In this document: positions 39,403 through 52,462 of the stretch, one piece after another | Numbering within the stretch: position 1 is the first letter of the stretch | How the letters are laid out: each line of letters begins with the position of its first letter | From: Catalinimonas niigatensis | GTDB lineage: Bacteria; Bacteroidota; Bacteroidia; Cytophagales; Cyclobacteriaceae | Length of the DNA: 64,000 bases | Direction: 5' to 3' | NCBI RefSeq assembly: GCF_030506285.1 | Contig: NZ_CP119422.1 | Coordinates: 1,798,001-1,862,000, forward strand | Made by a program: the position numbers and the translations under genes | The notes under the pieces: model-generated | Databases searched by the model: none | Told to the model about the DNA's origin: nothing | What the model saw: the letters and a program-made list of their open reading frames with translations, nothing else

Positions 39403-42060
39403 ATGAGCAGCGATAATCCAGGAAGCAGAGCGACCGGCGGCCCGGCGAGTAACCAAAAATTTAGAAGAAACCGGATTGAAGGCTATCTCAATAAAAGCGG
39501 GGTTAATTCGGCTATGGGTAAACTTCCTCCGCAGGCAACTGATTTGGAAGAGGCCGTATTAGGCGCACTAATGCTGGAAAAAGAAGCTTTGACTACAGTT
39601 ATTGATATTTTACAGGCAGATAGTTTTTACAAAGACAGTCACAAAGAAATATATAAGGCTATCCTTCAACTGTTTGACAATTCTGAGCCTATAGACATTC
39701 TTACAGTCACTAATCAACTTAGAAAATTAGGTACACTGGAATTTGCCGGAGGTGCTTTTTATGTGAGCGGTCTCACACAAAAGGTAAACTCCGCAGCCAA
39801 CGTAGAGTTTCATGCCCGTATCGTCTCTGAAATGGCCATCAAAAGAGAGCTGATCACCATTGCTTCAGAGATTGAGCACGAAGCCTATGAGGATACTACC
39901 GATACATTCAACTTACTAGATAAAGTAGAGCAAAGAATCTTCAGTGTTTCCGAATCCAATATTCGTAAAAACTATGCGGATATGCGCTCCATCATGCGCG
40001 ATGCCATCACCGAACTGGAAGCCAAGAAGCATCGCAAAGATGGGCTTACCGGCATCGCTACCGGATTTACTGCATTGGACAGGGTAACCTCCGGCTGGCA
40101 AAAGTCCGATCTGGTGATTATTGCGGCCCGACCTGGTATGGGTAAGTGCTTGGGCAAAGGCACCAAAGTTTTGATGTACGACGGCACATTAAAGAAAGTG
40201 GAAGATGTCATTCAAGGAGACCTGCTGATGGGTGATGACTCATCTCCCAGAAAAGTACTTTCTATTGCACGTGGCAGAGAAAGAATGTACTGGATACGTC
40301 AGAATAAAGGAATAGACTATCGCGTGAATGAAAGCCACATTTTATCTCTCAAACGTAGCCGTAATGAATCCATATATCAAAAGGGCGACATCCTCAACAT
40401 TTCCGTCAAAGATTATCTGCAAAAAAGTGATAAGTTCAAGTCAAACTACAAAGGCTATAAAGTAGCAGTAGAGTTTGATGAAAAACCCCTTGCCCTTGAT
40501 CCTTATTTTTTAGGTCTGTGGCTGGGAGACGGCGACACAAATAGCCCCCGTATCACTTCCGCCGACCCTGAAGTAGTAGAGAGTTTGAAAGACTATACAT
40601 TGGTCCTACAGGATGAAGGCAAGTCAGCATTTGTAAGTTCTTATGATTACCCTAACAGATGTACTCAATATGCTATTACTAAAGGGCAGAGAGGTGGACA
40701 GCATGTCTTTTCTATTAAGCAAGAACTGCGTGATTTGAATGTATTAGGTAATAAGCACATCCCTCATGACTACCTTAGCAATGCTACAGAAAAACGCCTG
40801 GAATTACTTGCCGGACTGATTGATAGTGACGGTCATTACCTTGAACAGTCAAACGGGTACGAAATCACACAAAGCCGACAGCAACTTGCCCATCAAATTA
40901 AATTTTTGTGTGACTCCCTGGGTTTCCGTACTTCCATACGAAAGAAAAGGGCTTCAATCAGTACGAATGGCTACGAAACGGAAGTTTATCGTGTACGGAT
41001 TTATGGAAATGTGTCCACCATACCTGTACGAATCAAACGTAAGAAAGCACAACCTTGGAGGAGCAAGATAGATTGGCAGGTGACTGGAATTCAGGTTGAA
41101 TATGATCAGGTAGATGATTATTACGGCTTTGAAATTGATGGTAATCGCCTCTTCTTGTTAGAAGATATGACCGTGACTCATAATACTGCCTTTGTACTCT
41201 CTGCCCTGCGTAATGCAGCGGTAGATTTTGGCCATGCCGTGGCGATCTTTTCTCTGGAGATGTCATCCATTCAGCTGGTCAATCGTTTGATCTCTGCTGA
41301 GGCCCAACTGGAAAGTGAGAAGATCAAAAAAGGAAACCTGGCTGACTTTGAGTGGGAACAGCTGTATCACAAAACCGCCAACCTCACTGAAGCACCGATT
41401 TATATTGACGATACCCCTGCCCTCTCCATACGCGAGCTACGCTCCAAATGCCGACGCCTCAAAGCACAGCATAACATTGAGCTGATCATCGTAGACTATT
41501 TGCAGCTGATGTCGGGCGACAGCAGCAAAGGAAATATGGGTAACCGTGAACAGGAAATTGCTTCTATCTCACGCGCCATGAAAAACATTGCGAAGGAACT
41601 GAATGTGCCGGTACTGGCGCTCTCCCAGCTCAGTCGTGCGGTAGAAACTCGTGGGGGTGATAAACGTCCCCAACTTTCTGACCTCAGGGAATCAGGTTCT
41701 ATTGAGCAGGACGCAGATATGGTGATGTTTCTGTACCGACCTGACTATTATGGGATTACCGAGGATGAAGATAACCAGCCTGTGCAAGGTACCGGTGAGG
41801 TCATCATTGCCAAACACCGTAATGGTGCGCTGGATACCGTACGCCTCAAGTTCATCGGAAAGTTCACCAAATTTACTGATCTGGATGACTCTTCTTTTGA
41901 TGGCAATACCTATGGAAAGAACCTGGTGAGTGCAGGACCTTCAGAGTCTTTTAATGATCCTAACATCATCACTTTTGCCAGTAAGGCCAATAATCGTTTT
42001 AACTCACCATCCGGGGGTACCAGCAGGTCGGAAGATCCTGATGAGGAAGCACCTTTCTAA
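39403..42060 (+). CDS. dnaB: Replicative DNA helicase DnaB with in-frame intein
   Basis: An 885-residue precursor. The extein adds up to 539 residues: the N-terminal DnaB domain (PPQATDLEEAVLGALMLEKE near 43-62), the RecA-type core beginning at about 205 and interrupted in the Walker A loop, Walker B IIVDYLQLM, and SQLSRAVETRGGDKRPQLSD with ESGSIEQDAD near the end. The intein lies between Lys248 and Thr595; excision rebuilds GMGKT, so the helicase can bind ATP only after splicing. DnaB unwinds DNA at the replication fork and is essential. The extra 40 N-terminal residues are Gly/Arg/Asn-rich. Confidence 0.96.
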   Translation: MSSDNPGSRATGGPASNQKFRRNRIEGYLNKSGVNSAMGKLPPQATDLEEAVLGALMLEKEALTTVIDILQADSFYKDSHKEIYKAILQLFDNSEPIDILTVTNQLRKLGTLEFAGGAFYVSGLTQKVNSAANVEFHARIVSEMAIKRELITIASEIEHEAYEDTTDTFNLLDKVEQRIFSVSESNIRKNYADMRSIMRDAITELEAKKHRKDGLTGIATGFTALDRVTSGWQKSDLVIIAARPGMGKCLGKGTKVLMYDGTLKKVEDVIQGDLLMGDDSSPRKVLSIARGRERMYWIRQNKGIDYRVNESHILSLKRSRNESIYQKGDILNISVKDYLQKSDKFKSNYKGYKVAVEFDEKPLALDPYFLGLWLGDGDTNSPRITSADPEVVESLKDYTLVLQDEGKSAFVSSYDYPNRCTQYAITKGQRGGQHVFSIKQELRDLNVLGNKHIPHDYLSNATEKRLELLAGLIDSDGHYLEQSNGYEITQSRQQLAHQIKFLCDSLGFRTSIRKKRASISTNGYETEVYRVRIYGNVSTIPVRIKRKKAQPWRSKIDWQVTGIQVEYDQVDDYYGFEIDGNRLFLLEDMTVTHNTAFVLSALRNAAVDFGHAVAIFSLEMSSIQLVNRLISAEAQLESEKIKKGNLADFEWEQLYHKTANLTEAPIYIDDTPALSIRELRSKCRRLKAQHNIELIIVDYLQLMSGDSSKGNMGNREQEIASISRAMKNIAKELNVPVLALSQLSRAVETRGGDKRPQLSDLRESGSIEQDADMVMFLYRPDYYGITEDEDNQPVQGTGEVIIAKHRNGALDTVRLKFIGKFTKFTDLDDSSFDGNTYGKNLVSAGPSESFNDPNIITFASKANNRFNSPSGGTSRSEDPDEEAPF
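40147..41184 (+). mobile_element. Intein with LAGLIDADG endonuclease domain in the DnaB P-loop
   Basis: The insert is 346 residues (249-594 of the precursor). It starts with Cys249 (CLGKGTKVLMYDGTLKKVED, block A), has block B as VNESHILSL with His312, two LAGLIDADG motifs (LGLWLGDGD at 370-378 and LAGLIDSDG at 469-477), and ends in YYGFEIDGNRLFLLEDM followed by TVTHN with His593 and Asn594. The next residue is Thr595. All residues needed for splicing are present, and both endonuclease motifs keep an acidic residue, so homing may still be active. No stop or frameshift is seen. Confidence 0.93.
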
Positions 42061-42821: not shown

Positions 42822-44030
42822 ATGCAATCCTCTCAGACGGACACCCATACTTCCAGCCAACTCAAAGACCTGGACGAAGCTTTTTATCTTAAAGTTTTCA
42901 AGAGATACCCCCTTATCCTATCCCATGGAAAAGGTGCCAGGGTCTGGGATACAGAAGGCAAAGAATACATAGATGCCTTGGCAGGAATCGCTGTAAATGG
43001 TGTGGGGCACTGCCATCCCAAAGTAGTAAAAGCCGTACAGGAGCAGGTGGCTAAGCTGATGCATATCTCTAACCTCTTCATCAGTGAACCTCAGATGCAA
43101 CTGGCGCAAAAACTGGTAGAACTCTCCGGACTGGACAGGGTTTTCTTTACCAATTCCGGTGCTGAATCCAACGAACTGGCTATCAAAATGGCCCGCAAGT
43201 ACGGACATACCCACGGACGTGGAGGCGAAATCATTACGATGGATGGCTGCTTTCATGGGCGTACCCTGGCGACCATTGCTGCCGGAAGGCCCAAGTACCA
43301 GAAAGGCTTTGAGCCCATTCCCGCCGGGTTCAAACTCATCCCATTCAATGACCTGGAAGCGGTGAAAGCGGCGGTGACTGACCAGACGGCTGCCATCATG
43401 GTGGAGCCTATACAGGGAGAAGGAGGAATTCATCCGGCAGACCTGTCTTTTCTTAAGGGCTTACGTCAGCTTTGTGATGAGAAAAACATAGTACTCATCT
43501 TTGACGAGATTCAGTGTGGCATGGCCCGTACCGGCGACTTCTTTGCTTTTCAGGGCTATGGCGTAACGCCTGATATCCTGTCATTGGCTAAGTCACTGGG
43601 AGGAGGGTTCCCCATCGGTGCCCTGCTGGCCAATGAAAAAACAGCCTCCGCCCTGGACTTCGGAGACCACGGCACCACCTTTGGAGGAAATCCGCTGGGC
43701 TGTGCCGCTGCGCTGGCTACCATTGAAGCCATAGAAGAAGAAAATCTACTGGAAGCCGCCCATACCCACGGCAGCAAGATCATGGAACGCCTGCGTGCGG
43801 AAGCTCAGCAAGAGACCGCCATCAAAGATGTACGCGGCAAAGGTTTGATGATCGGTATTGAACTGGACATTCCCTCCCGTCCGGTGGTGATGAAGATGAT
43901 GGAAAAAGGCGTCATTGCCAATGCCATCGGAGACAATATCGTCAGATTGGTGCCTCCCCTCACCATCAGCATGGATGAGCTGAATACGGTGGTGGATGTG
44001 CTGCTGGAATGTATTGCTGAGTGTAAGTGA
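42822..44030 (+). CDS. Acetylornithine-type class III aminotransferase
   Basis: A 402-residue class III PLP enzyme. FFTNSGAESNELAIKMARKY near 108-127 binds the cofactor phosphate, Asp228 (FDEIQCGMARTG) holds the pyridine ring, and Lys257 (ILSLAKSLGGGFPIGALL) forms the Schiff base. This pattern is that of acetylornithine/succinyl-diaminopimelate aminotransferases (ArgD). In Bacteroidota close relatives also include lysine and ornithine transaminases, so the exact substrate is not certain; no other arginine genes are nearby. Confidence 0.88.
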   Translation: MQSSQTDTHTSSQLKDLDEAFYLKVFKRYPLILSHGKGARVWDTEGKEYIDALAGIAVNGVGHCHPKVVKAVQEQVAKLMHISNLFISEPQMQLAQKLVELSGLDRVFFTNSGAESNELAIKMARKYGHTHGRGGEIITMDGCFHGRTLATIAAGRPKYQKGFEPIPAGFKLIPFNDLEAVKAAVTDQTAAIMVEPIQGEGGIHPADLSFLKGLRQLCDEKNIVLIFDEIQCGMARTGDFFAFQGYGVTPDILSLAKSLGGGFPIGALLANEKTASALDFGDHGTTFGGNPLGCAAALATIEAIEEENLLEAAHTHGSKIMERLRAEAQQETAIKDVRGKGLMIGIELDIPSRPVVMKMMEKGVIANAIGDNIVRLVPPLTISMDELNTVVDVLLECIAECK

Positions 44031-44076
44031 GCTTTTGAAGATGTATAGGCTGGAAGTAGGGAGTGGTCCCCACCGG

Positions 44077-44118
44077 GATGGAAGTTAGAAGTTTAACTTC
44101 AAACTTCCCACTTCCATC
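44077..44118. repeat. REP-like hairpin after the argD-like gene
   Basis: An 18-base arm at 44077-44094 (GATGGAAGTTAGAAGTTT) pairs with 44101-44118 at 16 of 18 positions around a 6-base loop. There is no T run after it. Further GGAAGT/ACTTCC units surround it, and a similar purine-rich hairpin follows the GH15 gene. Confidence 0.5.
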
Positions 44119-44125
44119 TTCCCAC

Positions 44126-44776
44126 TCAAAAAACCTTCTTACTCGGCACTTTCATACCCAGTGCTTCCATGAGTTGTGGACTATCTTTGAGGGCTAACCT
44201 GGCAATGGTACGGAATTCTTTCATCCACTCGTTTAACTCTTTCATCACTTCATTGCGTTTTTGGGTAGCTTCTTCGGCCTCTCCTTTCATTTGCAGGCGG
44301 CGATTGCGAACCGCGATGAGTGCCTCTACACTGGCCTGGTTCTGGGCAAGCTCTTCCTGAGACAACTGATAATTAGCCAAAACATCGGCATGCTGGATCG
44401 CCTTGCTATAGAAATAACTGGCCTGTAGTTGCCAGGCATCTTTCTTTTTGGAGATACTTTTGATACGAAACTTAGCCAGCGTAACTTCATCTTCACGGAA
44501 AGCGAGTCTAACCGTATCCACGTGATTTTTAAACCTCTTCACAGCCTCTTTCTCCTGAACATTCAGTTGGCTGGCTACCTCCTGCTTTTCCCCGTAGATA
44601 TCATGCTTACTATTGTGGAGCATCATCGCTTTATTGACCAAAGTATTACCCTCCTGCATACGCTTTAAGGTAAGTCCGTATTTGTTCAGTTTTTCCTGTA
44701 CGCTGGGTATTTCCATCGCATTATGAATCGCACTTTGAGCGGAACCCAATTTTTTGGATAATGAATAATCAGGCAT
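44126..44776 (-). CDS. Hypothetical coiled-coil protein
   Basis: A 216-residue, strongly charged, almost fully helical protein with no membrane segment or signal peptide. Coiled-coil stretches cover about 60-110 and 130-200 (QASVEALIAVRNRRLQMKGE then EAEEATQKRNEVMKELNEWM). I do not recognise a family with known function; similar helical proteins occur in Bacteroidota. It stands alone and converges with the argD-like gene across the purine-rich hairpin. Confidence 0.6.
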   Translation of the reverse strand: MPDYSLSKKLGSAQSAIHNAMEIPSVQEKLNKYGLTLKRMQEGNTLVNKAMMLHNSKHDIYGEKQEVASQLNVQEKEAVKRFKNHVDTVRLAFREDEVTLAKFRIKSISKKKDAWQLQASYFYSKAIQHADVLANYQLSQEELAQNQASVEALIAVRNRRLQMKGEAEEATQKRNEVMKELNEWMKEFRTIARLALKDSPQLMEALGMKVPSKKVF

Positions 44777-44936
44777 GATAAACGGGTGTTAATGGGACAA
44801 TATATGCAAGATAAGCAAGACTTTACATCATATACCCGGGCAAAAAGCGGAAGATATTACCGGGTAATTTCAAAAGAATAAATGCAAAAAAAACCTTTTT
44901 CAGGCCATATATCAGCCACATTGTCATTGATGCATG

Positions 44937-45146
44937 AACAACAAGTTGCTTGCTAGTCTTAAAACTTACAGCGACATTACTGCTCACTTACAACACACAC
45001 ACAAAACCTACAGCTACCACACTGTTGAGTCGCTTAAGCGTGGCAAAACTTCAGGTTTAATTACTGTTGAGTCGCTAAACACACCCATTTCCTGACGCTT
45101 TGTCACTGTTTAGCTCCTTGAAGGTCATCAAACTTCAGTTTTGTAT
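44937..45146. repeat. Five decayed 42-bp tandem repeats
   Basis: Similar sequences start at 44937, 44979, 45021, 45063 and 45105, exactly 42 bases apart. The last four begin ACTG (three begin ACTGTT). Units 45021 and 45063 share ACTGTTGAGTCGCT. Units 44937, 45021 and 45105 share an AAACTT block near base 25-31, while 44979 and 45063 share a CACAC block, so the real period may be 84 bases. 42 is a multiple of three, which would fit a relic of a coding repeat. Confidence 0.6.
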
Positions 45147-45188
45147 AGCTATAAGCCCTGCATCAGAGGTAAAAAACAACAAACACCT

Positions 45189-45279
45189 CATTGCGACCAG
45201 GCAAACGGTTTTAAAAATCCGGTATACGTCATTGCGACCGAGCACGTCTATTGCGAGGCTACAAGCCGTGGCAATCTCC
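45189..45279. repeat. CATTGCGA-type REP-like repeat cluster
   Basis: CATTGCGACC occurs at 45189-45198 and 45230-45239 and TATTGCGAGG at 45249-45258, followed by GCAATCTCC at 45271-45279, which could pair with the ATTGC core. Intergenic repeats built on CATTGCGAGG...GCAATCTC are known in several phyla. Confidence 0.5.
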
Positions 45280-45380
45280 AACTTTTTTGCAAAAAATGAG
45301 GAGACTCAAGACATGGAACGTTATGGAATGATCTGAGTGATGTATATGACGAAGAAAATCATAACAACCACACCTGTATA

Positions 45381-45944
45381 TCACCTTCTTCTTTCCATTT
45401 GTATCACCCTTTCTCTTCTACGCTGCCCTACTGATTTTCTGAATTTATTCAAATCATGAAGGTTTAATAAATCATTTCTAACCGCTCCTTCTAAAGTTTG
45501 TCTCAAATCTGATATCTCACGATAATAGTCTTTTCCAAGTATTATAAGTGTATTGTCATCAGTTTCATCTATCCTTCTTGATATATTAAAAAACAATTCA
45601 TCAAGTTTCTCCATGTGTACTACTGTTCTATCATTAATCCACATGCTATAAGAAAGAGCTACAAATAGGTTATGCTGATATTCATAAAACTTATCCTTAC
45701 CATAAGCAAAAATTAAGTGATATGCTCTAGCATTCTCGTCAAGAACAGAACTTTTCATTCCCGCAATTTGGGTTTCAATAAAATGATAAGCTTCAAGCCT
45801 CTTGTCCAAGATCTTCTTAAAATACTCATGCCTATAGTCTTGGTCTTTAAGCTTAATGGAAACTATTGCTGACACTATTGCAGATAGTATACCAGCTATG
45901 ACAGTACTTGTCAAAAGTAAATTCAATGATTCAGGACTTAACAT
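45381..45944 (-). CDS. Hypothetical membrane-anchored helical protein A
   Basis: A 187-residue protein that I do not recognise. One membrane segment lies near the N-terminus (about 8-30, LLLTSTVIAGILSAIVSAIV), followed by a basic/acidic helical cytoplasmic part (DYRHEYFKKILDKRLEAYHF at about 36-55) and a very basic tail (QRRRERVIQMERRR). The layout (membrane anchor then long helices) matches the neighbour protein B, 34 bases upstream on the same strand. No catalytic motif is visible. Confidence 0.6.
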   Translation of the reverse strand: MLSPESLNLLLTSTVIAGILSAIVSAIVSIKLKDQDYRHEYFKKILDKRLEAYHFIETQIAGMKSSVLDENARAYHLIFAYGKDKFYEYQHNLFVALSYSMWINDRTVVHMEKLDELFFNISRRIDETDDNTLIILGKDYYREISDLRQTLEGAVRNDLLNLHDLNKFRKSVGQRRRERVIQMERRR

Positions 45945-45978
45945 TTTTCTATTACAGTAAACCTAAAGAGATAAAATT

Positions 45979-46686
45979 TTAAAAATAACTTCTAATAGCT
46001 CTATAAAAAGGAAACTTATGTTTATTTAAATCTTTCAAACATTGTATGGTGTCATTATGCCAATTCATTTGCTCAACAACTTTTGCAATTTCATCCATAG
46101 TATCAGGCGACCTCTTTTTATGAATATTATCAATTTGAATTCTTAGCCGATTAGCTCTATCCAATATTTTAGTTAGCGTATCTTTTACTTTGATAGCTTC
46201 TTCCCTCTCTGTAAGACCTTCAAAAAAAACATCAGAGCTAAACTCAACTGAAGATTTATATTGATTTACCAGAATGATCACTTTTGAAGCAATTCCATGA
46301 GGATTAGATTCTGCTGTAATCATTTCATGATTAAGTGTATGAAAAACTAAATCTATGATATTACGAAGTTCCTTATATGCCTCATACTTGAGATTAAATT
46401 CAAATCTTTTTTGATTATTAATTTCAGTTACAAAAAATTGAAATACACCAAAACCTAAACCTAAAAAAGTAACAATTAAAGTTAGTCGCTTCTCATTATC
46501 TTCAATAACGTTTAATTCAATAAACAAATAAGTCAACGCCATCATTGCAATAAAAAAAACTAGAGGTAGTATATAAGACTTCATGATAAATTTTAAAGTA
46601 GAGTTCATGTGGCTGTCCATCTTTTCAGCCAATACCACTTTGGTTTTGTTCTGTTTTTCTATAAGCCATAAGCTAGCAAAAAGCAT
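45979..46686 (-). CDS. Hypothetical membrane-anchored helical protein B
   Basis: A 235-residue protein that I do not recognise. Two clear membrane segments (about 38-56 and 67-85) are followed by a helical soluble domain (NNQKRFEFNLKYEAYKELRN near 90-109, then KDTLTKILDRANRLRIQIDN). The true start may be later (MDSHMNSTLKF). The post-membrane pattern, with Arg-x-Glu, Lys and Ala-Tyr spacing, resembles protein A, so the pair may be distant paralogues or partners. Codon usage is AT-rich. Possible roles include stress or phage defence, but no domain proves it. Confidence 0.58.
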   Translation of the reverse strand: MLFASLWLIEKQNKTKVVLAEKMDSHMNSTLKFIMKSYILPLVFFIAMMALTYLFIELNVIEDNEKRLTLIVTFLGLGFGVFQFFVTEINNQKRFEFNLKYEAYKELRNIIDLVFHTLNHEMITAESNPHGIASKVIILVNQYKSSVEFSSDVFFEGLTEREEAIKVKDTLTKILDRANRLRIQIDNIHKKRSPDTMDEIAKVVEQMNWHNDTIQCLKDLNKHKFPFYRAIRSYF

Positions 46687-46729
46687 GAAATTATACTCAC
46701 TCTAACATAAGTTTTGGCTTCTTAGCAAA

Positions 46730-46747
46730 TTGTGGTGATCAGGTATT
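46730..46747. repeat. Left copy of an 18-bp direct repeat
   Basis: TTGTGGTGATCAGGTATT here and TTGTGGTGATCAGGCATT at 47889-47906 differ at one base. They bracket the Rpn remnant, a REP-like repeat and the nucleotidyltransferase pair. Confidence 0.55.
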
Positions 46748-46963
46748 TCCTTAATTCCAGAAGAGATGAAAGCATACGAAGAAAGTCTGAAAACCTATAG
46801 AGATAATTACAGTGTGATTGAAACTGCTAAAAAAGAAGGAAAGCAGGAAGGGAAAAACGAGGGAATGATTGATGTTGCAAGAGAAATGAAAAAGGATGGT
46901 CATCCAATTAAACTGATTGCTAAGTATACCAGGTTGAGCAAAGAACAGATAGAAAAACTTTAA
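46739..46963 (+). pseudogene. C-terminal remnant of an Rpn/PD-(D/E)XK family nuclease-transposase
   Basis: The frame starts after a TGA at 46736-46738 and encodes only the tail: PEEMKAYEESLKTYRD, then EGKQEGKNEGMIDVAREMK and the final ARYT-like helix (KYTRLSKEQIEKL). This charged EGKxEG tail is typical of the C-terminus of Rpn-type (PDDEXK_2) proteins. The nuclease domain is missing, so it is a truncated gene. No 5' part was found nearby. Confidence 0.7.
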
Positions 46964-46978
46964 GTCCACCATAGTCAT

Positions 46979-47024
46979 GCCTGACCGTGTCGTTCCGTAG
47001 CTTGTGGCCGTCGGGAATCTTTAT
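46979..47024. repeat. REP-like repeat, copy 1
   Basis: GCCTGACCGTGTCGTTCCGTA and CCGTCGGGAATCTTTA parts are shared with the longer element at 51259-51430 (CCTGACCGGGTCATTCCGTA; CCGTCGGGAATCTTTA). Confidence 0.55.
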
Positions 47025-47133
47025 CATAAGCGGACAAGTAACAAACTCCAAAAAGCCCCACCTTTCTTAGCTGCGGCACATATGCCACTAAACGAATAAA
47101 GAAATCATTATCATTGCACGAGGAAGTAATGAT

Positions 47134-47652
47134 ATGGAAATACATTTTGATACAAGAGGTAATTTAAAGCCATACGAGAAGATAGAACTTAGCCTGGATA
47201 GATTCAAAAAGCATTTTGTAGATGATTTTGCTAAAGAGTATCAAAGGCGAACAGAAATCTTCGGCAACTATTGGGGTTTTATTGAAGCATTTGAGCAGGA
47301 AGTGACGAAAGATTTTGTCCAATGGATTGATGGAAGTTTTGTTACCAAGAAGTCAGTTCCCCGAGATATTGATTTTGTGACACTGATAGATTATCAAACT
47401 TATGAAAGACATCAAACAATTATAGAAAACAAATTCCGAAGGCAAGCAGCAAAAAATGCATTCGGATTCGTAGATGCTTACGTTGTTAAAATGTACCCTG
47501 TTGGCCATTCACAACGTTGGGTTAGTGAATACGATTTGGTATATTGGAGAAGATGGTTTAGTGAAACTCGAATGAACAGGATGAAAAAGAAATATGGAAA
47601 GGGGTTCATTGAAATTAGATTCGGTAATGCTAATGTGATAAGCGATGAGTGA
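47134..47652 (+). CDS. Nucleotidyltransferase-like protein (DUF6932-like), possible toxin
   Basis: A 172-residue soluble protein. Residues 63-85 (QWIDGSFVTK then PRDIDFVTLID) give the polymerase-beta-type pattern G-S-x9-D-x-D: Gly67-Ser68, Asp78 and Asp80. A third acidic residue of a full active site is not obvious. This resembles the DUF6932 group I recall as nucleotidyltransferase-like; minimal nucleotidyltransferases act as toxins or antitoxins in several toxin-antitoxin types. It overlaps the next gene by eight bases, so the two are translated together. No signal peptide. Function is inferred from motif and layout only. Confidence 0.6.
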   Translation: MEIHFDTRGNLKPYEKIELSLDRFKKHFVDDFAKEYQRRTEIFGNYWGFIEAFEQEVTKDFVQWIDGSFVTKKSVPRDIDFVTLIDYQTYERHQTIIENKFRRQAAKNAFGFVDAYVVKMYPVGHSQRWVSEYDLVYWRRWFSETRMNRMKKKYGKGFIEIRFGNANVISDE

Positions 47653-47863
47653 TTTACAGATAGACGAAAAAACAGCTCGTATATCCGATATTTTAGAACA
47701 AATCGAGCGATTGAATCAAATGGTTGATTTTCATAAGAATGAATCGGGTGAAGAGAGTATGATGCGTCAGTATGAAGATATGCGTAATGAGTTCCTCAGA
47801 GAATTAGAAACATTACTTTCCAGCTTTAAAATTAACGTACAGATTAAAGATATAGCTGTTTGA
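47645..47863 (+). CDS. Small helical protein paired with the nucleotidyltransferase
   Basis: A 72-residue, acidic, helical protein (KTARISDILEQIERLNQMVD near 9-28; MRQYEDMRNEFLRELETLLS near 40-59), likely to form a coiled coil. Its start lies inside the end of the preceding gene (8-base overlap). Size and position fit an antitoxin or a regulator of the nucleotidyltransferase. I do not recognise a family. Confidence 0.6.
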   Translation: MSDLQIDEKTARISDILEQIERLNQMVDFHKNESGEESMMRQYEDMRNEFLRELETLLSSFKINVQIKDIAV

Positions 47864-48211
47864 ACCGCAATTCAGACTTTACCATGACTTGTGGTGATCA
47901 GGCATTCAACATCGGGACTGCAAGTTGATCACTTGCACGCTATTCCAGAAAAATCAGCTCCAGCAGTTCCTTACCTCCTGCATAACAAGCATCCAATGAA
48001 CATGATGAGGTGGCCAGCGAAGAGGTGCAGTGAGCAGGCTCAATCGGATACCTCCATTATCTAACAGAGCGTTAGCACCAGAAAAGGACCAATCTTCAGG
48101 TAAAGACTTGCCTCAAAGCATTAATTTTTAATGAAGAATGGAAGGCGAAATTTTTAAAATGCCATAAACAATTTCTATCTTAAACTTTCACCGATCAACA
48201 ACCTGACAAGC
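47864..48211. other. 348-base intergenic stretch with the right direct repeat
   Basis: It holds the second copy of the 18-bp repeat (47889-47906) and an inverted pair GTGATCA/TTGATCAC within it. No gene was supported. Confidence 0.5.
47889..47906. repeat. Right copy of the 18-bp direct repeat
   Basis: TTGTGGTGATCAGGCATT, 17 of 18 bases the same as 46730-46747, in the same orientation 1,159 bases away. Confidence 0.55.
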
Positions 48212-49162
48212 ATGCCTAACACACTTATCAACTCAACTAAAATGGCCATTTTGGCCTTTTTACTTTTCTTTGCCGTATCAGCCATGGCGCAGGACGGCAC
48301 CATCTATCCACTTGAAGCTCCTGCTGAGCCAAAAGCCATTCCGCTTGGCACGGGCGGTGTTGAGGACCAGCCCGCCCCCGAGACCTGGTTCCGCCAGTGG
48401 GGCGACCCTATGGCGCGGAACATCTCCACGGCAACCCTCACTCCCTTTCTGCCTGAACCCGGCAAGGCGAATGGCACGGCCGTGATCGTAGCGCCCGGTG
48501 GCGGTTTCAGGTGGCTCTCCATGGGCAACGAGGGCTGGGAAGTTGCAGAGGCCCTTAGGAAGCAGGGAATTGCTGCCTTTGTACTCAAGTACCGCCTCCA
48601 CCCGACTCCGGAATCGCTCGACGAGTTTACGGCATGGATGAATCGTCCCCGCCCGGCACCTACTGCCTCTGCCGACACGGCACAAAGTGAAACACCGCCG
48701 AGTCCGCCGCAGCGGGACCTGTCTGACCAGCTCGAGGACGCCGAAGCCGCTTACGCCATGATCCTAGATCGGGCCGAGGAGTGGGGTGTCGATACTGACC
48801 GAATAGGTATGATTGGCTTCTCAGCTGGCGCCGGCCTCACGATGCACTCAACACTCAACTCCCAGACCATGAAACTGGCCTTCATCGGTCCGATCTATGG
48901 CGGTATGGGCCCGGTGGAAGTGCCGGAAGATGCTCCGCCCATGTTCAATGTGATCGCCACCGATGATTTTCTCTTCCGCGGTCAGTTCGGGGTCATTGAT
49001 TCCTGGTATCAAGCAGGTATACCGGTGGAGTTTCACCTTTACCAAAACGGCGGACACGGATTTGGCCTCGGCAATCCCGACCGCACCAGCAATCGCTGGT
49101 TTGATGCCTTCGTACACTGGCTGGAAGTCAACGACTTTCTCACGCCTATGGCCGGTAAGTGA
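48212..49162 (+). CDS. Secreted alpha/beta hydrolase (esterase), GC-rich
   Basis: A 316-residue exported esterase with a signal peptide (MAILAFLLFFAVSAMAQ near 11-27). The oxyanion region is APGGGFRWLSMGNEGWEVAE near 94-113, the nucleophile elbow is GFSAGAG near 200, a likely acid residue lies in VIATDDF, and the His is in NGGHGFGLG near 285. The form is that of acetyl-xylan-type or BD-FAE-like esterases that release acyl groups from plant or algal sugars. The coding part is far richer in GC than its neighbours (38 of 60 bases in 48421-48480, against 19 of 60 in 47161-47220), a sign of recent transfer. Confidence 0.85.
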   Translation: MPNTLINSTKMAILAFLLFFAVSAMAQDGTIYPLEAPAEPKAIPLGTGGVEDQPAPETWFRQWGDPMARNISTATLTPFLPEPGKANGTAVIVAPGGGFRWLSMGNEGWEVAEALRKQGIAAFVLKYRLHPTPESLDEFTAWMNRPRPAPTASADTAQSETPPSPPQRDLSDQLEDAEAAYAMILDRAEEWGVDTDRIGMIGFSAGAGLTMHSTLNSQTMKLAFIGPIYGGMGPVEVPEDAPPMFNVIATDDFLFRGQFGVIDSWYQAGIPVEFHLYQNGGHGFGLGNPDRTSNRWFDAFVHWLEVNDFLTPMAGK

Positions 49163-49574
49163 TCAGACGGTCTTTTATTGAACACCACATCTACAGCTTG
49201 CCAAAAGCTTTACATGGTTAAATATCTATGTAAGCAAATATCTATTTCCATGAAGCGTATAACCTTAATCATACTCTGGGAAGAAAGGACTTAGTTGAAA
49301 AGTATACAAATGGCAAAAAGATAAAGTTGGTGTGGGCTGCAATAAAAAATGACTGCGCAACAACATGAGACAGACAGGGTTTCAGAGCGTGTAGGTGCTC
49401 TCACCGGATTATCCTGCTTATTGATATGAATAGCTTACGCCCTACTTTTTTCCCAAACCATTAGCAGTCATCGGATGGCTCAGGGAGCATGTTTGGTATA
49501 CACCTATAGTGGAACGTAACCTTAATAGGAGGTATCCGTATATCTCATAATTTTTTCACCAATACTGATATGAG
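49163..49574. other. 412-base intergenic stretch
   Basis: No gene was supported. A 44-codon open stretch (about 49238-49369) ending KLVWAAIKNDCATT could be the tail of a lost gene. No repeats or terminator stand out. Confidence 0.4.
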
Positions 49575-50354
49575 ATGATTCAAAAAGAATTTGCAAATCA
49601 TGCCAAGAAATTGCTCATGGAAGATCAAAATGTGATTGGACTAGCCGTTGGTGGCTCATGGCTTTCTGATGAACTGGATGAGTTCTCAGATCTTGATCTA
49701 ATCTTAGTGACGAAAGAGAAAATCTCTGATAAAAAATCTGAGATGCTTGGTTATGCAAATCGTATAGGAAAACTGTTAACTGGTTTTACCGGAGAACATG
49801 TTGGTGAACCCAGAGTTTTAATTTGCCTCTACGATAACCCACTACTGCATGTCGACATAAAATTCCTCACTCTTGATGAATTAGCTACCAGGGTTGAAGA
49901 TCCCCATATACTTTTTGATCGGGATAATCAGTTGTTACAGGCGTTTCAAAAATCTGAAGCCATGTTTCCATATCCTGATTATCAATGGATAGAAGATAGG
50001 TTCTGGATTTGGATTCATTATACACTTTTAAAAGTTGGACGTGGAGAATACATGGAAGCCATTGATTTTTTTGGCTTTATGAGAATGGTAGTTCTCGGCC
50101 CCTTACTTCACATAAAGAATGGAAATTTACTACGCGCCGTGAGAAAGGTGGAAACCACTCTAAAGACAGAAGACTTGAATAACATAAAGTTAACCCTTCC
50201 CTATTATGACAGGCAATCCATATTAGCTGCACTCAAAAACGCTATTGATCTTTACAAGAGTTTAAGAACTGAGCTCTTTGACCATAAAATTGATTTAAAA
50301 GAAGAGACTGAAGAAAAAGTCATGAACTACTTGACTAAAATCAAGAATGCCTAA
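49575..50354 (+). CDS. Nucleotidyltransferase-domain protein
   Basis: A 259-residue soluble protein. The N-terminal domain has the classic Gly-Ser motif and Asp pair in LAVGGSWLSDELDEFSDLDL (residues about 24-43; Asp39 and Asp41), and a further acidic residue in LHVDIKFL near 93 completes the usual triad. The C-terminal half is helical (about 130-255). The form resembles aminoglycoside- or streptogramin-type adenylyltransferases and similar enzymes of unknown substrate; an antibiotic role is possible but not shown. It lies alone in the accessory island. Confidence 0.75.
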   Translation: MIQKEFANHAKKLLMEDQNVIGLAVGGSWLSDELDEFSDLDLILVTKEKISDKKSEMLGYANRIGKLLTGFTGEHVGEPRVLICLYDNPLLHVDIKFLTLDELATRVEDPHILFDRDNQLLQAFQKSEAMFPYPDYQWIEDRFWIWIHYTLLKVGRGEYMEAIDFFGFMRMVVLGPLLHIKNGNLLRAVRKVETTLKTEDLNNIKLTLPYYDRQSILAALKNAIDLYKSLRTELFDHKIDLKEETEEKVMNYLTKIKNA

Positions 50355-50549
50355 TTAGACTAATGAGTCATACGGCTAACAGTCAATAAGCTCAAAGAGC
50401 AATCTTAGGTACTTTCAGTTTGAGTGCAGAAAAAATAACTTAAGACCAGATGTGTTCACTGAGTTTATTGGAGTTATTAGCAGTCAGGCTATGAGACGAC
50501 AGGAAGACATCGAGAACATTGATTGACGAACAAAATAAATCAGCAAAAA

Positions 50550-51014
50550 ATGGTAACGACAACAATTACAGAAACAAATTGGTATCCTGAAAAAAGGTTG
50601 GTTGTAACGCATATCAGTGGGGATATTGAGAAAGACGACATTGAACAGTGGGAAAAATCCTTCAAAAAAGCATTAGAACAAATTGAAGACAATACAACCT
50701 TCAAAATCTTTGTCAATATGTATGGATTTAAGGCAGTGAATATTGACGCACATAAGAGGTTCAGAGGGGTTATTCCTTTGACACTTGCTGACTATGGTTG
50801 GAAGGTAGGTTATGTGGACTTGTTTGAAGAAGAAGCCAAAACAATGACGTATAAACATACAAAAGGAATCAAATGTGTTGGAGCAGCACATGCACATCAG
50901 GACAAAACCAAAATGGACTTGTATGAGACAAGGTTCAGCAGCGAGCGAGAACATTTTTTCTTTGACCCGACACAAGCAAGTCAATGGATAGAGCATTTGG
51001 AAATAGCAGAATGA
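50550..51014 (+). CDS. Hypothetical protein, SpoIIAA-like (STAS) features
   Basis: A 154-residue protein from ATG 50550 (an earlier TTG at 50523 is also open). The alternating strand-helix layout, with RLVVTHISGDIEKDDIEQWE near 15-34, FKIFVNMYGFKAVNIDAHKR near 52-71 and YVDLFEEEAKTM near 90, resembles the small SpoIIAA-like STAS proteins. I cannot confirm this without a search. The gene lies after the nucleotidyltransferase with 195 bases between, so a shared transcript is uncertain. Confidence 0.5.
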   Translation: MVTTTITETNWYPEKRLVVTHISGDIEKDDIEQWEKSFKKALEQIEDNTTFKIFVNMYGFKAVNIDAHKRFRGVIPLTLADYGWKVGYVDLFEEEAKTMTYKHTKGIKCVGAAHAHQDKTKMDLYETRFSSEREHFFFDPTQASQWIEHLEIAE

Positions 51015-51466
51015 CAGCCTAACTCCCTTACAAAAGTACACACACAATGCCTGACATAACATGGGCGACAAAATTCCAGATAATTCCGCTTTACCCATCT
51101 CTTCTGTGCACCAATAATCAAGTGAATATGATTGAACATCATGCGTCATGCATATACTCACAGTCCCTTGTATTTGTAAAATAACAGAGACTTGCTACTA
51201 CACTAGCATATATTCTGATTTGTATGAACAAAAGAAATAAAAACAGGGATTAAGCCAATCCTGACCGGGTCATTCCGTAAAGCAGCTGCGGCGCAATGGA
51301 GCCGAAGTAGGTAGCACGGAGATGCCCCGTCGGGAATCTTTACCACTCAGTGGTGGCCATGTAGCAAGTCGTCAGCTTACCTTCTGCATGGTAAAGCCCT
51401 CCAGGCCGGAACGCCTACGGCATGACACTGAATATTTCATATAACTTCGGTCTTCTGGACTCAAAA
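51015..51466. other. 452-base intergenic stretch at the right end of the island
   Basis: It contains the second REP-like element (51259-51430). No gene was supported. Confidence 0.5.
51259..51430. repeat. REP-like repeat, copy 2, with inverted ends
   Basis: CCTGACCGGGTCATTCCGTA at the left and CGGAACGCCTACGGCATGAC at the right are near inverted copies (GTCATTCCGTA against GTCATGCCGTAGGCGTTCCG), enclosing CCGTCGGGAATCTTTAC and GGTAAAGCCCTCC. Part of it matches 46979-47024. It lies between the island and the mla genes. Confidence 0.6.
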
Positions 51467-52462
51467 TTAATTCTGTTCTTCAATGGTGTCGTCTTCCTGC
51501 TGATCATCATTGCTTCTGCCTCCACCAAACAGATTCAGTATCCAACTGTTATTTACCTTTTCGGCTGTTCTGTCAATACCTTCTGAAGTTTGCTTTACCT
51601 GATTGATGGTTTCGTTGATATCTCTGGCAAAGGCGGTATCGGTGAGTACTTTATCCAATGCCCCTTCGTCATTCTTAAGTTTTTCACTGAATTCAAGGAT
51701 ATTCTGAGCTACATCGGTAGAAAGTGAGCCTGTTTTGGCGAGTGAGTCTATAATCATCTCCACTTTCATGGCAGTTTCCCGGTCTGCCATGAGTTTACCC
51801 AATGCCCCCTCCCCATTGCGGGTACGTGCAGCAAGCTCATCCACGTTCTGCAAAATATTCTGGATATTATTGCTTGCCATTTCAAAGGAGTTAAAAATAC
51901 TTTCCACCTGTTCTACATTGGAGGTATCTGCTACCAGATTACCTAAAACTCCCTTTCCTTCTTCAATTCTGCTACTGATTTTCTCAATGTTGCTGGCGAT
52001 CTGCATGGCACTTTGGCTGGTTTTGTTCAGATTGTCCATGATGTCTTCTATGCTGGAAGGCCTGGCTGTCTGCAACTGATCGCCATCGCTTATACTACCA
52101 GCCTGTTGTGATCCCGAAGAGATGGTAACAATCTTATTGCCCATAAGGCCAGCCGTAGAAATAGTGGCTACTGCGTCGGATTTGATAAACTGACTGGCTT
52201 CTTTATTAAGCACCAAAGTTGTCTGTACTGCCGAATCACTTTTGAGTGTTATTCCTTCAACGGTGCCAATGTTGATACCTGAAAACTGCACCTGGCTTCC
52301 TACCTGTAAGCCTTCTACTGTATTGAATACTGCCTGTACCCGAACATTAGATCCGAACATGTTTTGACGCGCACCGATAAAGAAGATAGCCGCTACAAAT
52401 AACAGTAGCCCAAGGATTACAAAAAATCCCAGCTTGATATTATTTCTTTTGCTTTCATCCAT
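51467..52462 (-). CDS. MlaD/MCE-family lipid-binding protein
   Basis: A 331-residue protein with one N-terminal membrane segment (about 9-28) and an MCE domain at about 40-120 (VRVQAVFNTVEGLQVGSQVQ, FSGINIGTVEGI). A long helical, coiled-coil part follows (SQSAMQIASNIEKISSRIEE, with repeats around EGxGALGKLMADxE), then a short acidic end. MCE proteins form rings that carry phospholipids between the membranes. With the ATPase and permease upstream it forms a minimal Mla-type ABC transporter. The downstream end faces the island. Confidence 0.9.
   Translation of the reverse strand: MDESKRNNIKLGFFVILGLLLFVAAIFFIGARQNMFGSNVRVQAVFNTVEGLQVGSQVQFSGINIGTVEGITLKSDSAVQTTLVLNKEASQFIKSDAVATISTAGLMGNKIVTISSGSQQAGSISDGDQLQTARPSSIEDIMDNLNKTSQSAMQIASNIEKISSRIEEGKGVLGNLVADTSNVEQVESIFNSFEMASNNIQNILQNVDELAARTRNGEGALGKLMADRETAMKVEMIIDSLAKTGSLSTDVAQNILEFSEKLKNDEGALDKVLTDTAFARDINETINQVKQTSEGIDRTAEKVNNSWILNLFGGGRSNDDQQEDDTIEEQN

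Follow-up and report, generated by a model that had tools for sequence, protein, structure and literature searches.

Two adjacent genes of Catalinimonas niigatensis, here called A and B, are best explained as unrelated accessory cargo of a defense hot spot, in which B encodes a membrane-acting anti-phage protein; we put the probability of this reading at roughly 55%. Both genes lie within a stretch of 64,000 nucleotides (positions 1,798,001 to 1,862,000 of contig NZ_CP119422.1), the whole of which is referred to below as the window.

Genes A and B are adjacent and have no detectable homology

Gene A (46686..45979, minus strand) is an ORF of 235 amino acids with two membrane helices followed by a helical part, and gene B (45944..45381, minus strand) is an ORF of 187 amino acids in which one N-terminal membrane helix leads into a helical bundle. 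A first-pass annotation of this DNA had described them as two adjacent, codirectional, AT-rich genes, both with N-terminal membrane segments, and our measurements confirmed that description. In the ORF list, gene A is upstream of gene B on the same strand with a gap of 34 bp. By hydropathy, A has two membrane segments (window starts at residues 38 and 68) and B has one (window start at residue 10), and the G+C content is 0.29 for A and 0.33 for B versus 0.41 for the whole window. Positive charges are found just after the last membrane segment in both proteins, which probably places the long helical part in the cytosol. In this predicted orientation, the N-terminal helices of A and B would sit in the inner membrane and the all-helical domain of each would probably face the cytosol. 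The short gap between the genes also makes it likely that they are transcribed together at this locus. Two relatives of A begin near its residue 27, so translation of A probably starts internally, at M27 (near 46608). A Pfam match of A to RseC_MucC (5.8e-4, below the curated cutoff) was dismissed as membrane-composition noise because it covered the two membrane segments only.

It had also been proposed that the two proteins share a motif layout and might form a two-part membrane system. The motifs do exist, with KYEAY at residues 100 to 104 of A and RLEAY at residues 49 to 53 of B, but KYEAY is absent from the two relatives of A (L050 and L051) when these are aligned with it. Within the B family, the A-Y part of the motif is common among the 13 members aligned, unlike R49, which is invariant. 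The remote-homology comparison of A and B was negative: the best BLASTP E value was 0.44, and a profile-profile comparison of 13 B-family proteins with 3 A-family proteins gave a probability of 0.05%, so that neither method detected homology. As judged from the sequences, the likeness between A and B appears to be one of superficial layout only.

If A and B were a dedicated two-component membrane system, either toxin-antitoxin-like or a two-subunit channel, this would agree with their common strand, the 34-bp gap, and the similar membrane-plus-helix layout. However, A has no detectable homology to B, and when the fetched loci were searched with profiles at permissive settings, only this window held both genes, out of 16 B loci and 3 A loci. 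Contig ends cut one side of B in two of these loci (L022 and L023), so 14 of the 16 B loci could be fully assessed for A. Given the lack of both detectable homology and co-occurrence elsewhere, we reject the two-part system and consider it highly improbable. A and B instead appear to be two unrelated genes that form no conserved or obligate pair. Since no pairing was found elsewhere, they are, by the reasoning of the first-pass annotation itself, chance neighbors inside a defense spot.

A variable site between argD and an MlaD-type gene

The argD-MlaD spot varies in content, and at least one of the two congeners examined has defense genes there. Synteny with these congeners places it at 44031..51466, between argD (42822-44030) and an MlaD-type gene (51467-52462), both named by eye. 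In one congener (G002), the spot is nearly empty and argD directly adjoins the mlaD-type gene. In the other (G001), a neighboring helical gene is kept, and the spot contains an IS transposase (by eye), a Lamassu system, and an MNT gene, after which comes the same MlaD-type gene. The Lamassu matches are LmuA (1.5e-40), LmuC/MC3 (9.3e-41; Pfam), and LmuB (1.1e-116), followed by a Polbeta nucleotidyltransferase. We observed in the stretches from this congener (L033 37-4255; L044 17752-18388) that the system is of the LmuACB arrangement and that the MNT nucleotidyltransferase has an HEPN-like partner (by eye).

The first-pass annotation had placed A and B in an island with a nuclease relic and nucleotidyltransferases, and these elements are present in the window. 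The relic ORF (46766..46963, plus strand; 65 amino acids) has no curated match, and a relative with 74% identity is present in this genome; we take the ORF to be the truncated tail of a nuclease-transposase-like protein. The first nucleotidyltransferase-like gene (47134..47652, plus strand) matches DUF6932 with an E value of 1.7e-28 and the PADLOC candidate PDC-M63A with an E value of 2.4e-16. Its end is overlapped by an ORF of 72 amino acids (47645..47863, plus strand) that has no curated match and could be its partner in a toxin-antitoxin-like or defense pair. The second is a Polbeta/Adenyl_transf-like protein of 259 amino acids (49575-50354) with matches below the curated cutoffs. We also observed for this protein a weak match to streptomycin adenylyltransferase-type models, again below the cutoffs. 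On the other side of argD, the replicative helicase gene dnaB (by eye; 39403-42060) carries an intein-like insert (40146-41180) of about 345 amino acids, which comes after GMGK and ends in VHN. This insert is missing from both congeners.

An unnamed family of B proteins in bacteria and phages

B represents an unnamed, sparsely distributed family that is carried by bacterial defense islands and by phages or prophages. Besides the genome of the window itself, we found two clear relatives in 395 Bacteroidia genomes and five in a profile search of 241 genomes of the order; five came from the genome collection, and more came from viral contigs. Repeats were merged (L005 with L052, L006 with L022, and L026 with L053; L054 and L055 are nearly the same), and weak matches (L007-L011; E values of 0.0017-0.005) were left out of the counts. 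This left 16 loci including the window, 12 of which are cellular. Three residues of B (K43, R49, and W102) are identical in all 13 aligned members. No model of the family was found in Pfam, PHROGs, NCBIfam, or PADLOC as searched, and B itself had no convincing match to PHROGs. Searches of plasmid records and phage records gave no match.

Defense-type genes near B in bacteria

A defense-type match was found within about 6 kb of B at 6 of the 12 cellular loci. In the window, this match is PDC-M63A. At L046, an Abi_alpha gene (4.3e-24) lies 6 bp downstream of B with SIR2_2 nearby, and at L047 B is near Fic and SLFN_AlbA_2. Abi_alpha (2.3e-20) and AAA_15 are both near B at L048, an AAA_15 that is 49% identical to the L048 protein is near B at L049, and a type IIG methyltransferase is near B at L025. 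L024, with DUF2806 (2e-39) and a subthreshold Abi_alpha match, was not counted among the six. At the five other cellular loci (L021, L022, L023, L045, and L052), there was no defense-type match among what was looked at. L045 to L049, among which are the majority of the clearest contexts, derive from a single genus, though their surroundings differ. One-by-one scans covered 16 selected proteins from the loci of bacterial B and A relatives, and 100 were scanned in aggregate. These 100 neighbor proteins matched 310 PADLOC models versus 71 for 128 control proteins, an aggregate count that cannot be read per locus and is inflated by generic ATPase and methyltransferase models, and whose control is weak, with defense-like genes in the control stretches as well.

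The recurring neighbor of B is Abi_alpha (PF14337). Of the four Abi_alpha copies above the cutoff in seven genomes, two are no more than 3 kb from B. The expected number within 5 kb is about 0.007, and the probability of two or more is about 2e-5, uncorrected for the post hoc choice of this family. B is a different protein beside Abi_alpha, with no match to PF14337 in B or in the seven other members scanned. Abi-alpha of an Enterococcus prophage is described, in passages of its report, as aborting infection via premature lysis, and a fall in the proton motive force is given there as one hypothesis of its authors (PMC6356687). We found no publication in literature searches under the identifiers PF14337 and DUF6932.

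Relatives of gene A

Gene A, too, is probably an accessory gene and independent of B. Beyond its own genome, there was no relative of A in the first 59 related genomes and none that was convincing in 395 Bacteroidia genomes, and the 241 genomes of the order yielded two, at loci L042 and L043 (L050 and L051 are the wider stretches). In L051, the relative sits in a type I restriction operon with an hsdS-like gene on one side and an hsdR-like gene on the other; the methyltransferase of the operon matches MTase_I (4.9e-167), and HsdS and HsdR were named by eye. A putAbiC gene is also nearby. Like A, putAbiC (PF16872) has two membrane helices followed by a helical part, but A has no PF16872 match. 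The relative in L050 has housekeeping neighbors. Weaker matches (L012-L020 and L059-L061) were dropped; at L012, L015, L018, L019, and L059-L061 the ORFs are unrelated to A by eye. The ORFs at these seven loci include acetyltransferase-like and ABC ATPase-like ones.

Co-occurrence with defense genes, which had been suggested as a check on the pair, is divided: it holds for six cellular B loci and for the A relative in L051 but not for five B loci or for L050. The earlier suggestion of a phage defense function survives as to the setting, which both synteny and the neighborhoods of relatives support, but not as to the two-part system, for which there is neither detectable homology nor co-occurrence elsewhere.

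We asked whether A and B might be selfish or decaying cargo in a spot prone to recombination, with no role in defense. Cargo of this kind does decay: the last 34 residues of A are found as a degenerate remnant in the same genome at 3,494,792 (L035 9368-10296), and another relic (46766-46963) lies next door to the pair in the window. The remnant of A is flanked by genes that we take to be HTH-like and RelE-like. However, both ORFs in the window are intact, B is conserved across large distances together with its three invariant residues (K43, R49, and W102), and Abi_alpha and AAA_15 recur beside it. We therefore regard cargo without a defense role as unlikely and favor defense cargo.

B in phage packaging clusters

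B is found in the packaging cluster of three phage lineages. In L054 and L057, B is followed by the terminase small subunit, the terminase large subunit, and the portal, and in L056 B is encoded on the opposite strand, with the terminase large subunit on one side and the portal on the other. An accessory gene inserted among phage structural genes is a description true of these three relatives and not of the window copy. Phage morons are often found on the opposite strand. Prophage superinfection-exclusion proteins of the SieA and Sie2009 type are, like the B relatives, small membrane proteins in temperate phages. These positions, including the one on the opposite strand, raise the possibility that B belongs first of all to phages, as a moron that serves in superinfection exclusion by a resident prophage or as a phage-specific packaging or lysis accessory, and that lost prophages left the bacterial copies behind. 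However, most bacterial copies, including that in the window, have no evident phage genes around them, and several adjoin Abi or restriction genes. A primary role in phages is conceivable, but we doubt it, and we continue to prefer an anti-phage role for B in the bacterial defense spot.

Two further observations concern the viral loci. Upstream of the B relative in L054 is a phage gene (1246-1974) for a membrane-helix protein with a similar motif after the membrane segment, and this protein has no profile match to A. L053, from the viral collection, carries genes that we take, by eye, to be relaxase-like and methylase-like, and so it may be a mobile element of another kind; its relaxase-like ORF had no PHROG match.

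Predicted structures and comparison with Csx28

The model of B, made from a 7-row alignment, has a pLDDT of 82.1 and a pTM of 0.68 and consists of one helix from residue 4 to residue 61, a short hairpin, and a helical bundle. From this model, B can confidently be predicted to consist of a single long helix running from the membrane into the cytosol and a helical bundle. The single-sequence model of A (pLDDT, 59.5) is readable only as helical and is too poor for a comparison of the A and B folds. Foldseek gave no match at an E value of 0.001 or better, and nothing stood out for A in a second-look aligner.

With the second-look aligner, the third match of the B model was PbuCsx28 (8gi1_A; Z score of 10.2, root mean square deviation of 4.8, and 134 of 144 residues), which tied with unrelated bundles and falls under the aligner's warning that a Z score below about 13 may reflect a common helical-bundle arrangement. 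Csx28 is described in passages of three papers as a membrane accessory protein or pore of type VI-B2 CRISPR-Cas13b (PMC12669027, PMC8209922, PMC10808066). Like B, it is small and combines a membrane helix with a helical domain. The two have no sequence match, though they may be distantly related, and the Z score is within the range expected for unrelated helical bundles. Identity over the structural alignment is 10%, and a search of the B profile against all PDB chain sequences returned no Csx28 up to an E value of 10. We noticed no Cas13b-like gene beside B, by eye, in the ORF lists of the loci examined. An HEPN-like R-x(4-6)-H motif has been attributed to Csx28. Such strings occur in 4 of 13 B members at differing positions, and we rejected B as an HEPN nuclease because the R-x4-H string of the window protein is not conserved among the 13 members. 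A bolder proposal, which we consider quite improbable, is that B founds unnamed single-membrane-helix, Csx28-like pore effectors without CRISPR that occur in phages and defense islands and that, in some islands, are paired with depolarization-triggering Abi_alpha, AAA_15, or SIR2.

A possible role for B at the membrane

We infer that B is probably a membrane-anchored anti-phage protein of the abortive or exclusion type. It would act at the membrane during phage infection, either as a stand-alone protein or in association with Abi_alpha. B may first assemble, by a putative oligomerization, and would then perturb the membrane or block phage entry.

The argD-mlaD spot is a simple place in the genus for finding more defense genes. 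B recurs beside Abi_alpha, and the discoverers of Abi_alpha left its route to early lysis open, as far as those passages of their report go (PMC6356687). If our reading is right, B marks an unmodelled family of small membrane proteins that moves between phages and bacterial defense islands.
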